From assembly GCF_022763305.1 (NCBI RefSeq), contig NZ_JALEGT010000049.1, positions 1-64,000 of the forward strand: 64,000 nt of DNA. Direction: 5' to 3'. Below are positions 43,358 to 52,883 of this stretch, piece after piece. The notes beneath the pieces were generated by a model. The model saw only the letters and a list, made by a program, of their open reading frames with translations. It did no database searches and was not told the origin of the DNA. Numbering within the stretch: position 1 is the stretch's first letter; each line of letters opens with the position of its first letter. The stretch comes from Marivita sp. Lineage in GTDB: Bacteria > Pseudomonadota > Alphaproteobacteria > Rhodobacterales > Rhodobacteraceae. Both the position numbers and the translations under genes were made by a program.

Positions 43358-44215
43358 CTATCGCATGATAAGCACGGGCACCTTGCAGGAGCGGAGCATC
43401 TCGGTTGTTGTCGACCCGATGATGAAGCTGCGCACCCGGCTGTGACCATAGGCGCCCATCACCAGCAGGTCTTGCGAACCGGTCGAGGTGATCTGCGCAA
43501 GCACCTTTTCCGGCTCACCAATTTCAATCACAATCTGCGCGTCAAATCCACCGGCCTTGAGCGTCGCTGTTGCGTCGGACAGCGCCTTCTGGATCGCCGG
43601 GGTCTCTTTGCCGGCGAACACCAGTGTCACGGCAAGGCCTGCGAACATCGGGCTGCGTGCGATATAGTCCACCGCCTTGAGGGATGACGGACCACCGTCG
43701 AAGGCGACAAGTGCTGATGTGATCGGCTTGAACGCGCGGTTCGCGATGAACACGGGCTTGTGGCTGGCCCGGACGATCCGTTCAAGGTTGGAGCCAAGAT
43801 GCTCCATCGCCAGACCGGCCGCCTCACCGCGCTTGCCGATGACGATCATGTCGCCGGTTTCTTCCTTGGCCGTCACGGTTTCGACCAGATCGCCCTGACG
43901 CAGACGGGTTTCGACGGTGATGTCGGCGCCTTTGGTGATGATCGCCTTGGCGTCTTCCAGAATGGCCCGGCCATGTTCATGCGCCAGCTTGGCGCGGGTG
44001 GCGTCGAGTTCGGACAGTTGCTCCAACAGCGACGAACGCGCCCCAAGCCGGATGGCGCCGGACAGGTCCTGTTTTTCGACCGCATCGCGGCGACCCATCA
44101 CGTGGTAGACCTTGACCTTCCAGTCAGTGCACCCGGCGATCCACGCCGCGTGATGGCAGACGCTTTCGGCATAGGCAGAGGCATCCACAAGGGCGATGAG
44201 GGTGTTCGTGGTCAT
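43358..44215 (-). CDS. Universal stress protein, tandem-domain UspA type
   Basis: A 285-residue protein made of two Usp domains (roughly residues 1-145 and 150-285). The nucleotide-binding glycine pattern near the C-terminus, GAYGHSRVRSFIIGSTT, suggests ATP binding in the second domain; the first domain shows GKRGEAAGLAMEHLGS. It lies 11 bases after the SulP gene, so they are co-transcribed, and may act on the carrier or respond with it. Confidence 0.85.
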   Translation of the reverse strand: MTTNTLIALVDASAYAESVCHHAAWIAGCTDWKVKVYHVMGRRDAVEKQDLSGAIRLGARSSLLEQLSELDATRAKLAHEHGRAILEDAKAIITKGADITVETRLRQGDLVETVTAKEETGDMIVIGKRGEAAGLAMEHLGSNLERIVRASHKPVFIANRAFKPITSALVAFDGGPSSLKAVDYIARSPMFAGLAVTLVFAGKETPAIQKALSDATATLKAGGFDAQIVIEIGEPEKVLAQITSTGSQDLLVMGAYGHSRVRSFIIGSTTTEMLRSCKVPVLIMR

Positions 44216-44226
44216 GGTCTGTCTCC

Positions 44227-45717
44227 CTAGTGGCCCAGCAATTCGTCCATCGCGCCGGGTTTGTCGTGGATGGCCAACCTGTCGACGATGGTCTCTGATG
44301 CCTCGTTGAGGCCGATCAACTCTACCTCTGCACCTTCGCGGCGGAACTTGAGCACAGCCATGTCAAGCGCCGCAACCGACGAGATGTCCCAGATATGCGC
44401 GCGGCTCAGGTCGATGGTCACGCGGTCCGGGGCTTCGCGGAAATCGAAGGCCTTCATAAAATTCTCAGACGAGGCGAAGAAGAGCTGCCCTTCGATGGTG
44501 TAGGTGCGATGTGACCCGTCCGGCGTGATCGAGGTCCGAACGCGGAAGAGTTGCGAGATCTTCCAGGCAAAGAAGATGCCCGAGAGCAGCACGCCGACCA
44601 GAACGCCGATGGCAAGGTTGTGGGTGTAGATCACGAAGAACACCGTCGCCAGCATCACGATGGAGGACGATTTCGGGTGGTCGCGCAGGTTCTTGATCGA
44701 CGACCACGAGAACGTGCCGATGGACACCATGATCATGATCGCCACCAGCGCTGCCATCGGGATGATCGCCACGATGTCGCCCAAGGCGACCACGAGGATC
44801 AGCAGGAAAAGACCCGCGACAAAGCTCGAAAGCCGCCCGCGCCCACCGGATTTCACGTTGATGATCGACTGGCCGATCATGGCACAACCCGCCATGCCAC
44901 CGATGAACCCGGTGGCGCTGTTGGCCAGGCCCTGACCGATACATTCCTGATTGCGGCTGGAGGTCGTGTCGGTGAGGTCATCGACGATCTGCTGTGTCAT
45001 CAGGCTTTCCAGCAGGCCAACCACGGCCACCGCGACCGAGTAGGGGAAGATGATCTGAAGTGTCTCGAAGGTCAGCGGGATGTCGGGGATCAGGAACACC
45101 GGCAGCGTGTCGGGCAGTTCGCCCATGTCGCCCACGGTGCGCACATCCCACCCCATGAAGACCACCACGGCGGTCAGCACGATGATGGTGACCAGTGGCG
45201 ACGGGACTGCCTTGGTCACCATGGGGAACAGGTAGATGATCAGCAGGCCCGCCGCGACTAGCACATAGGTCAGCATCGGCACGCGGCTTGGGTCAAGTTC
45301 GGGCAATTGCGCCATGAAGATCAGGATCGCCAGCGCGTTGACGAAGCCCGTCATCACGGATTTTGACACGAAGCGCATGACGTAGCCCAGTTTGAGCAGC
45401 CCGGCCCCGATCTGCAACAGCCCCGCCAGCACCGTGGCGGCAAGCAGGTATTGCAGCCCGTGATCCTTGACCAGAGTGACCATCAGCACCGCCGTTGCCG
45501 CTGTGGCCGCCGAGATCATGCCCGGTCTGCCTCCGGTGATCGCGGTGATCACGGCAATCGAGAAGGATGCGTAAAGACCCACCTTGGGATCGACCCCCGC
45601 GATGATCGAGAACGCGATGGCCTCGGGGATCAGCGCCAGCGCCACCACCAGTCCGGACAGAAGATCGCCACGGATGTTCTGGGTCCATTGTTGTTTGTAC
45701 TGTGCAGCTGAGATCAT
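44227..45717 (-). CDS. SulP family anion transporter with STAS domain
   Basis: A 496-residue transporter. The N-terminal SulP domain has about twelve to fourteen helices and the family blocks [17 protein letters not shown] near residue 30 and the glycine-rich [19 protein letters not shown] near 265. A cytoplasmic STAS domain covers about residues 385-496. SulP proteins carry sulfate, bicarbonate or dicarboxylates, and the BicA branch takes up bicarbonate with sodium. Sequence alone does not decide. Start ATG 45717 lacks a strong ribosome-binding site. It precedes the Usp gene in one operon. Confidence 0.85.
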
Positions 45718-46037
45718 GAAAGAATTTGCCCATAGGCCGCGAGCGGGTCGCGCGGTCTTTGTCGGTGTCATCGGTGTGCAGGGGTTCCAGCGGACAACCG
45801 GCCAGTTCGGCCAGCCAAGGGTGTCACCCGGCGTAAGTCGCCGCTCCCTTACCGCGAGATGGCGGGGATGCCAAGTTGAAGGGACAGGATTTGCCCACGC
45901 GTGACGATCAAGGCGCAACACCACGGCCAGCCCGAGCCTCTGTGCGCTCATCCATGACAATCTGCGCGGAAGTGGATGTTTTGTGAAACTGTGCAGAGTT
46001 CTATGTGTTGAACTCACACGGATGCAAGGAGCGAGAC
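45718..46037. promoter_or_regulatory. Divergent intergenic region between SulP and quinone reductase genes
   Basis: This 320-bp gap holds no convincing gene, although the minus strand stays open. It contains promoters for both flanks by position. Near 46004-46018 a partial dyad TGTG/CACA lies 20 bases before the plus-strand start, in a TGTGTTGAACTCACA context. A weak TTTTGT...TATGTG pair lies upstream of it. Nothing else stands out. Confidence 0.3.
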
Positions 46038-51425: not shown

Positions 51426-51610
51426 CTGTAGAGCCTGTCTGATTCCCGTGTTGAGGGTCAGTGTGTCGCGGGGGTTGGCGCTGAGTCAACGATTTGGTTC
51501 CGCATATGGTAAGCGTTGGCCGTTTATCCACAAGATATTGCGGGGCGGACTGCCTTGTTTTGGTATGACCTCCAAGCCAGCCAAAGCGCAATTGCAGGAT
51601 AGCTCTTTAC

Positions 51611-51626
51611 ATTCCGATTTGCGAAT
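51611..51626. promoter_or_regulatory. ATTC-N8-GAAT box 1, SqrR/BigR-type operator candidate
   Basis: ATTC at 51611-51614 and GAAT at 51623-51626 are separated by exactly eight bases. From memory this ATTC-N8-GAAT pattern is the operator of the ArsR-family persulfide sensors SqrR and BigR, which repress sulfide-handling genes in Rhodobacter and relatives. It lies 40 bases before the start of the membrane protein at 51666. Confidence 0.5.
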
Positions 51627-51634
51627 GTAAATAT

Positions 51635-51650
51635 ATTCCAAAATCGGAAT
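51635..51650. promoter_or_regulatory. ATTC-N8-GAAT box 2, SqrR/BigR-type operator candidate
   Basis: A second ATTC-N8-GAAT site (ATTC 51635-51638, GAAT 51647-51650), 24 bases centre to centre from box 1, about two helical turns, so both could be bound on one face. It also forms a 9-base inverted repeat with box 1 (ATTCCGATT and AATCGGAAT). The gene start follows 15 bases later. Confidence 0.5.
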
Positions 51651-51665
51651 ACAAGGAGACCCGCC

Positions 51666-52883
51666 ATGGACCATTCCGTATCCAGACCCGCTGACACCTA
51701 CTCGCCCATCTACTTTTTGGCCTCGCTTGGTGCGGGCGGGATCGCAGTCACATTCTTTATGTTCCTGATGTTCTGGGTGCCGCATCCCGGACAGCCGGTC
51801 CCGGTGTTCGAGGATATCGCAGCCGCCTTTGCAAAGGGTGACGTTAGGATGCAGGCTGCAATCGCCGCTGCCTTGATCGGGATCGCCGTCTTTGCGGTCC
51901 TCAACATCAAGTCGTTGATCTGGAACCTGCAGTCCTTGTCAGCCTTCAAGAAAACCGAAGCCTACACAAAGCTGCGCGAAACCAACGCCGAAGCCACGCT
52001 TCTCGCGATGCCGCTTGCGCTTGCGATGAGCGTGAACGCGATGTTCATCGTGGGTCTCGTCTTCGTGCCGCAGCTTTGGAGCGTGGTGGAATACCTCTTC
52101 CCGATGGCTTTGATCGCCTTTGCCGCTATCGGCGTGCTGGCCTTCCGCATGATCGGCGCATTCCTTGGCCGCGTCCTGTCCAAAGGTGGTGTGTTCGATG
52201 TGACCGCGCATAACTCGTTTGCGCAGCTTCTGCCTGCCTTCAGCATTGCCATGGTCGGCGTCGGTTTCGCCGCCCCTGCCGCGATGAGCACGTCCGCCAC
52301 CACGGTCGCCGTTGCCCTGATGCTGTCGACCTTCTTTGGCGTCGCCGCGATCCTCTACACTGTGATTGCCGCCACCACCGCATTTGCATCGATGCTCCAG
52401 CACGGCACTGCACGGGAATCCGGCCCGACCCTTATGATCATCGTGCCGATTGTCACCGTTCTGGGCATCCTCTTCCTGCGTCAGAGCCACGGTCTGCATG
52501 TCGCCTTCGACACCCATGCACAGCCCGGTGAAACCATGATCTTCCTCGCACGGCTTCTGTCGATCCAGATCGTGTTCCTGCTGCTCGGTGCGGTTGTGAT
52601 GATGCGTCAGGGATACTTCAGCGACTTCGTCATGGGCACCAAGACCTCGCCGGGCTCCTACGCCCTGGTCTGCCCGGCCGTGGCGCTCTCGGTCATGATC
52701 CACTTCTTCGTCAACAAGGGTCTTGTTGCTGCGGGTGCGATCGAAAAGTTCGGTGTGGCCTACTGGGGTGTAACCGGTATTGCCATCGTGGCGCAGCTTG
52801 TCGCCATCGTGTTGGTTCTCCGCCTCAACCGCCAGCACTTTGTACGTCGCGCTGTTCCGGCAAATGCGGTTCCCGCAGAATAA
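51666..52883 (+). CDS. Polytopic membrane protein, possible sulfur-responsive transporter
   Basis: A 405-residue protein with about ten to eleven hydrophobic segments, no signal peptide and no soluble domain. Sequence segments such as LASLGAGGIAVTFFMFLMFW and FVNKGLVAAGAI are compatible with TDT-like (tellurite/dicarboxylate) exporters; I also recall an uncharacterised family named TsoY with a similar beginning, but cannot confirm it. It is preceded by two ATTC-N8-GAAT boxes that suggest a persulfide-sensing repressor. Start ATG 51666 has an AAGGAG site at 51653-51658. It may move a sulfur compound; this is inference. Confidence 0.55.
   Translation: MDHSVSRPADTYSPIYFLASLGAGGIAVTFFMFLMFWVPHPGQPVPVFEDIAAAFAKGDVRMQAAIAAALIGIAVFAVLNIKSLIWNLQSLSAFKKTEAYTKLRETNAEATLLAMPLALAMSVNAMFIVGLVFVPQLWSVVEYLFPMALIAFAAIGVLAFRMIGAFLGRVLSKGGVFDVTAHNSFAQLLPAFSIAMVGVGFAAPAAMSTSATTVAVALMLSTFFGVAAILYTVIAATTAFASMLQHGTARESGPTLMIIVPIVTVLGILFLRQSHGLHVAFDTHAQPGETMIFLARLLSIQIVFLLLGAVVMMRQGYFSDFVMGTKTSPGSYALVCPAVALSVMIHFFVNKGLVAAGAIEKFGVAYWGVTGIAIVAQLVAIVLVLRLNRQHFVRRAVPANAVPAE

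Follow-up and report, generated by a model that had tools for sequence, protein, structure and literature searches.

The consensus operator of SqrR is cited as ATTC-N8-GAAT (PMC9774250, accessible part), and the related repressors SoxR and sHdrR of Hyphomicrobium denitrificans have been described to bind common targets (PMC10451225 and PMC12423496, accessible parts). A review lists selenoprotein TsoY with the motif UxxV and mentions the Tso (three selenoprotein) operon (PMC13188914, accessible part); by name, TsoY and TsoR, an ArsR/SmtB-type regulator named in NCBIfam, belong with the Tso genes, and the two would be co-located in this operon. Among the literature matches listed no function of TsoY was found, which is no proof of absence, and no report among the matches listed joined SLAC1 or TehA with sulfite, sulfide or persulfide in bacteria. 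In SLAC1, the gate residue F450 on TM9 is followed by the helix breaker P451, and F262 of HiTehA corresponds to this phenylalanine (PMC10645844, accessible part).

The window analysed here, a stretch of 64,000 nucleotides of Marivita sp., carries a tsoY-family gene preceded by two exact copies of ATTC-N8-GAAT (Table 1). The initial annotation had placed the two sites 24 bases apart and 15 to 55 bases before a membrane protein gene, and these positions were confirmed: the boxes are 24 bp apart from start to start, and with the ATG at 51666, box 1 starts 55 bases and box 2 ends 15 bases 5' of the start codon. The open reading frame is real, as indicated by its coding score and its orthologues. 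As judged from the sequence, the boxes very probably form a tandem operator for an ArsR repressor of the SqrR/BigR/SoxR type, a degree of confidence that applies to the operator part of the mechanism outlined below. A possible promoter beneath the boxes was read from the sequence and is weak; a consensus promoter scan reported no plus-strand promoter at the boxes, and the corresponding pattern TTTACA-N15-19-TAnnnT was found in 10 of 80 orthologue tsoY promoters.

Table 1. Features of the tsoY locus and of the two candidate repressor genes. Locations are window positions unless a contig or locus is given.
Feature	Location	Strand	Basis
Operator box 1, ATTCCGATTTGCGAAT, within CTTTACATTC...GAATGTAAA	51611-51626	.	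exact ATTC-N8-GAAT; kept in relatives
Operator box 2, ATTCCAAAATCGGAAT	51635-51650	.	exact ATTC-N8-GAAT; kept in relatives
Possible promoter TTTACA ... TAAATA/TATATT beneath the boxes (weak)	51606-51637	+	read from sequence
Gene of the tsoY family; product of 405 aa with ten long helices and one cysteine (C336)	51666-52883	+	NF047644; predicted model; fold search
Codons of C336-P337, start of TM9, sole cysteine of the protein	52671-52676	+	CPxV conservation
Anion transporter of the SulP family with uncertain true start; possible functional neighbour	44227-46017	-	Pfam
Universal stress protein (Usp) adjoining SulP	43358-44215	-	Pfam
SoxR, ArsR of the sox cluster	contig C23; L036 7483-7815		
Orphan ArsR paralogue (C52)	contig C52, 25258-25575; L078 2759-3076		

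Within the window, the pattern occurred four times against 1.17 expected, and at least four copies arose in 2 of 100 shuffles. Throughout the genome (G000; 4.43 Mb in 121 contigs) we counted 34 sites, and the reversed control pattern occurred once. The shuffle rate of the window, scaled to the whole genome, extrapolates to about 81 sites, and as the 34 counted are thus not clearly above chance, lone sites carry little meaning. A crude gene caller placed 27 of the 34 inside predicted open reading frames and seven between genes, the latter being two at tsoY, two in the sox cluster and three on contig C65. Two of the 27 sit in very weak reading frames, and another three lie 21, 26 and 47 bases 5' of a likelier start. 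These three precede, in this order, a metallo-beta-lactamase-fold protein with similarity to AidB lactonase (C73) and a metallohydrolase with SoxH-related similarity (C87), in both cases below the model cut-off, and a 5-aminolevulinate synthase (C84). The boxes at C87 162255 (L040) and C73 7770 (L037) are sox-like (ATTCAC...) and lie 26 and 21 bases, respectively, before likely starts; going by sequence, both metallo-beta-lactamase-fold genes are possible further targets of SoxR. The three sites on C65 (13547, 19997 and 32499; L045, L068) all read ATTCATTCGGATGAAT or its reverse complement. As the same stretch also holds a GntR/UTRA regulator, an ABC ATPase and a phosphonate-binding-type protein, ATTC-N8-GAAT is not exclusive to SqrR-type proteins, and the view that any such site is an SqrR target was rejected; on C65, the same frame apparently serves a different regulator.

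The pair before tsoY behaves differently from such lone sites. A first comparison of 60 relatives and the window genome yielded 20 tsoY loci with the 5' end of the gene, including that of the window genome and excluding the gene fragments L025 and L026. The pair was kept in 15 of these promoters, one box in two and none in three, and boxes aside, the sequence 5' of them was dissimilar among the 20. As to the fragments, TsoY of G003 is split across contigs C79 and C30 (L019, L026), and in G009:C1 (L025) only a C-terminal part was found, which may reflect an assembly gap or gene decay. When the 61 whole genomes were searched for tandem pairs with a gap of 4 to 14 bases, 17 places in 15 genomes were found and none with the reversed control, and 15 of the 17 precede tsoY. 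Of the remaining two, one (G021:C2:376621) follows a CoxE-like VWA gene for which we saw no connection to sulfur, and the other (G036:C10:6403) has a rhodanese-like CXXCW protein and a SoxH-type metallohydrolase encoded nearby. With regard to chance frequency, raised in the initial annotation as a possible objection, single sites in the genome are not clearly above it, and the pair is rare.

In a set of 80 named Rhodobacterales orthologues, the nearest of which are from Marivita, 71 promoters contain one or more exact boxes in the 100 bp before tsoY; two exact boxes were present in 38 promoters and none in nine. The 80 loci comprise 1,125,349 bases, and 109 of their 112 ATTC-N8-GAAT sites fall within the 8,240 bases of promoter sequence. 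ATTC with a spacer of eight ranked best among 2304 combinations of half-site and spacer, spacers of N4-N7 and N9-N13 together accounting for two promoters, and mononucleotide shuffles of the 80 promoters produced a box in 0.16 promoters on average and in two at most, compared to the 71 real ones. In the 38 tandem pairs the spacing was 25 bp (20 pairs), 24 bp (17) or 23 bp (one). In addition, 9 of the 33 single-box promoters hold a second box matching at seven of eight positions 24 or 25 bp away, and such a seven-of-eight site is also present in three of the nine promoters without an exact box.

Candidate repressors are encoded in the genome. PF01022 identified nine places, four of which were inspected individually, and a search with the C52 protein returned exactly two ArsR proteins of the SqrR/BigR type, namely SoxR of the sox cluster and the orphan C52; the homologue that the initial annotation had asked for is thus present twice. 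The best PDB match of both was the 13ct/6o8l group, which we take to be SqrR, and both cysteines are retained. Against the BigR equivalog model NF040642, the two proteins scored 104.9 and 94.7 bits and did not reach the cut-off of 155, and their scores of 48.0 and 42.6 fell far short of the TsoR cut-off of 115. Of the regulator proposed earlier, the SqrR/BigR-type ArsR stood, which may be the orphan or SoxR, but a BigR assignment in the strict sense did not.

The whole-genome search also located the same box before soxX and soxB beside SoxR. We collected sox clusters from 20 relatives, comprising 14 of the 16 of the same genus (all except G008 and G015) and six from outside. Exact boxes precede soxX and soxB in all 14 same-genus clusters and in the window genome (15/15); outside the genus, G021 has two boxes, G036, G023 and G033 have one, and G019 and G027 have none. 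All boxes found in the clusters of the 20 relatives lie outside the sox genes. The sox clusters independently tie an ArsR protein of the SqrR type to this class of box. The earlier suggestion of an SqrR/BigR-type operator gained from the two ArsR proteins and the sox boxes, and is limited in that the pattern alone, as on C65, is not diagnostic.

The centre of the box points to a difference between the two sets of promoters. In the sox arms, which stem from 21 clusters, 15 of them of one genus, ATTC is followed by a purine in 69 of 70 cases. Of the tsoY arms, 135 of 178 have a pyrimidine there in genomes with a C52-type ArsR, and 24 of 32 have a purine in genomes lacking one. Similarly, two tsoY boxes were present in 36 of 58 C52-positive but in only 1 of 19 C52-negative genomes. 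This count covers 77 of the 80 genomes (all except L105, L122 and L146); C52-type was defined by at least 67% identity, a threshold chosen after a gap between 64 and 67 was visible, and ten Marivita-type loci (L081-L090) were scored as positive from the genome-wide C52 search. The preference for a purine at sox and, in most arms, for a pyrimidine at tsoY hints at the orphan C52 as the tsoY repressor, and the sequences fit a situation in which C52 would be the usual repressor of tsoY and SoxR-type proteins would act where C52 is missing. Two paralogous repressors would have a precedent in SoxR and sHdrR of Hyphomicrobium denitrificans. However, the link between C52 and the arm base is confounded by phylogeny, as it is largely due to a single clade: in the TsoY tree, 15 of 19 C52-negative genomes fall into one group, and in an independent-contrast test on this tree, which provided two well supported independent contrasts, the link between C52 and the box centre was not significant. 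C52-type ArsR proteins also occur in the tsoY-less genomes G008, G015 and G018. No exact box was found at the C52 promoter in the window genome's stretch, and 30 related C52-type loci held two box sites, neither preceding the ArsR gene. Judged by string counts, 24 of these 30 loci have a mandelate-racemase-like and 11 an amidase-type neighbour; in the window genome, these two neighbours were identified by Pfam, and the genes around C52 are not sulfur genes as read.

Two other views of the regulator have to be weighed at this point. SoxR of the sox cluster might repress tsoY everywhere, the differing box centre being the result of drift. The SoxR gene adjoins the same class of box, the stretch RQAAVSQ, presumably of the recognition helix, is identical in SoxR and C52, and the tsoY box looks sox-like where C52 is absent; yet drift does not readily agree with the opposite preference of tsoY and sox arms in C52-bearing genomes, and we regard a sole role of SoxR as a minority possibility that deserves to be kept in mind. 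Much less probable is that the boxes serve another class of regulator (GntR, MarR, TetR or similar) with no tie to sulfur. The C65 sites next to GntR/UTRA and phosphonate-binding-type genes and the tandem pair behind the CoxE-like VWA gene are in line with such a regulator, but the fixed core of the C65 sites is unlike the tsoY boxes, the sox clusters connect the box class to SqrR-type ArsR proteins, and sulfur genes are present in some TsoY neighbourhoods elsewhere.

The product of the gene belongs to the TsoY family (seleno)proteins (NCBIfam NF047644, 518.1 bits, passing the cut-off of 150). The model for selenoprotein TsoY (NF047643) was not reached, with 62.9 against 250 bits; a cysteine occupies the motif and the frame is open. 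A Pfam search found no match up to an E-value of 1, including the SLAC1 family PF03595. AlphaFold, run on 56 of the 81 Rhodobacterales TsoY proteins (alignment A2), predicted a structure of ten long helices (pLDDT 87.3, pTM 0.87), so that of the ten to eleven helices proposed earlier ten were retained and the eleventh was not. In a Foldseek search of the PDB with this model, ranks 1 to 17 were all chains of TehA or plant SLAC1/SLAH with a probability of 1.00 and TM scores of up to 0.57 (query) and 0.74 (target), and rank 18 dropped to a probability of 0.16; the E-values were modest, the best being 0.0049 and none below 0.001. Comparing a profile of 24 TsoY rows (A3) with one of 20 SLAC1 proteins (A4) gave weak support, with an E-value of 8.7e-5 and a probability of 60% in local mode, covering the N-terminal two thirds only, and 1.1e-6 and 82.5% in global mode. 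A single SLAC1 sequence aligned to profile A2 by hhalign gave nothing (probability 1.3%), A2 showed no similarity to the sequences of solved structures up to an E-value of 10, and a viral fold library gave no match (best E-value 0.24). The predicted model suggests that TsoY is a remote relative of the SLAC1/TehA fold that is missed by Pfam.

In the model, TM9 spans residues 329-354, and the cysteine C336 is located close to its start. The motif CPxV is present in all 81 Rhodobacterales TsoY proteins (window and 80 named; 52 CPGV, 21 CPAV, 8 CPFV); all 24 rows of A3, among them seven distant proteins with 37-43% identity, read CPGV or CPAV. The cysteine is the only one in 79 of the 81 proteins, two having a second, and at least some distant TsoY proteins have additional cysteines. 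In the SLAC1 alignment A4, the gate phenylalanine column F319 is invariant in all 20 proteins; it was matched to structure 7wnq, in which residue 450 was located by manual counting. In the global profile alignment (probability 82.5%), C336-P337 fell on F319-P320, whereas an alignment restricted to TM7-TM10 (probability 12-16%) did not place C336 on the gate phenylalanine. As the two alignments disagree, a replacement of the gate by C336 is a lead rather than a result, and a position of C336 at or near the SLAC1 gate is tentative at best. Equally speculative is the idea, built on the same model, that TsoY is a new type of SLAC1-fold channel in which a reactive cysteine (selenocysteine in relatives) replaces the gate phenylalanine, with persulfidation opening the pore or sulfane sulfur itself passing through. 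If persulfide sensing turns on tsoY, induction and gating of the protein would depend on one and the same chemical.

In Rhodobacterales, tblastn searches of the flanks of the 80 tsoY loci found no match to SqrR-type ArsR, YeeE or SoxY, also when repeated with a positive control, and among partner genes sought up to 7 kb on either side, SulP was present in eight Marivita-type loci and peroxiredoxin in one only. SulP and Usp of the window lie about 6 kb from tsoY. This pair (43358-46017) recurs directly before peroxiredoxin and TsoY in the gammaproteobacterial loci L309-L312, where the gene order is SulP, Usp, peroxiredoxin, TsoY; the window SulP is 65-66% identical to SulP of these clusters, and the window Usp matches that of one of them at 31%. 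TsoY was found in 8 of 348 genomes searched of one gammaproteobacterial family, namely those of L309-L312 and of L202 and L306-L308. In the latter four, a TehA-like gene directly adjoins TsoY, and an octahaem cytochrome of the tetrathionate reductase family is located next to TsoY or one gene off; TehA-like protein and TsoY, side by side in this setting, perhaps form a mixed channel or split a task. These loci further contain a Blh-type persulfide dioxygenase domain (L202, L306), rhodanese genes (L202, L306, L307) and a CsoR-type repressor (L202). On an Aliarcobacter plasmid (L219), the same type of SulP and a TehA-like fragment adjoin TsoY. Such neighbours were not found in six distant loci (L203, L204, L254-L257), of which L254 and L257 are truncated at contig ends and L255 gave a 34% peroxiredoxin match, and none of the tested neighbours was present in the plasmid loci L217 and L218. 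The sulfur-linked role proposed at the outset is thus supported by sulfur genes in some distant neighbourhoods, but now concerns a TsoY-family protein with a predicted SLAC1/TehA-like fold.

Based on the model and these neighbourhoods, transport of a sulfur species by TsoY is plausible, although the balance tips only slightly in its favour. TsoY may instead be a membrane oxidoreductase or sulfur carrier with C336 or selenocysteine as catalytic residue on a SLAC1-like scaffold. An invariant cysteine that matches a selenocysteine motif (CPxV versus UxxV; PMC13188914, accessible part) would suit redox catalysis, as would the octahaem cytochrome, cytochrome b561 and peroxiredoxin encoded nearby in some genomes. 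The best fold matches are, however, anion channels, and as C336 is the sole cysteine in 79 of 81 Rhodobacterales proteins, the chain lacks a resolving partner; we regard the catalytic alternative as a minority possibility, about as probable as a sole role of SoxR. We consider it unlikely that TsoY resembles other TDT proteins in exporting organic acids, nitrate or tellurite, with sulfur control being incidental: the TDT model does name dicarboxylate and tellurite-resistance transporters, but the sulfur or SulP neighbours recurring in one gammaproteobacterial family, together with the SqrR-type operator, favour a role linked to sulfur.

Our preferred reading is that TsoY is a persulfide-derepressed channel or transporter of the SLAC1 fold for a sulfur anion. 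Taken as a whole it is somewhat favoured. The boxes with their conservation, the two ArsR proteins, the sox boxes, the family, the predicted fold and the invariant Cys-Pro come directly from the computational analysis; we infer the identity of the repressor, the repression, the inducer, the match of C336 to the gate, the transport and its substrate. At low levels of reactive (sulfane) sulfur, two repressor dimers would cover the region where the tsoY transcription unit begins and thereby silence it. Persulfide or polysulfide would link the two cysteines of the repressor, which would then leave the DNA, and TsoY would be made. The orphan C52 is the most probable repressor in this genome, with SoxR as the alternative, and SoxR would probably act on tsoY in species without C52. 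The sulfur anion carried across the inner membrane by TsoY would be sulfite, thiosulfate, HS- or polysulfide. C336, by motif the counterpart of selenocysteine in the selenoprotein subfamily, may serve as a reactive residue within or close to the pore and perhaps takes the position of the gate phenylalanine of SLAC1. This reading would add a transporter to a regulon of the SqrR/SoxR type. With its conserved persulfide-type operator, its channel-like fold and an invariant Cys/Sec close to the likely gate, TsoY acquires a testable role in the handling of reactive sulfur by marine bacteria, and the gate idea, if true, would describe a channel in which the gating residue itself reacts with sulfur.

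Compared to the described systems, both tsoY boxes match the operator cited for SqrR (PMC9774250, accessible part), but differ from the arrangement at SqrR, BigR and SoxR operators by forming a tandem pair at one gene with a spacing of 23-25 bp, and from the sox boxes by their centre. In contrast to the arrangement presumed for the Tso operon, the ArsR candidates are unlinked to the tsoY gene. Relative to selenoprotein TsoY (NF047643), the protein has cysteine instead of selenocysteine, CxxV here corresponding to UxxV by motif and not by residue-level alignment. With SLAC1 and TehA, the predicted model of TsoY has in common ten helices and the best fold matches; it differs from SLAC1 by some 20 extra residues between TM7 and TM9 and possibly by a cysteine in place of the gate phenylalanine, and just as a proline follows the gate phenylalanine in TM9 of SLAC1, P337 follows C336 in TsoY.
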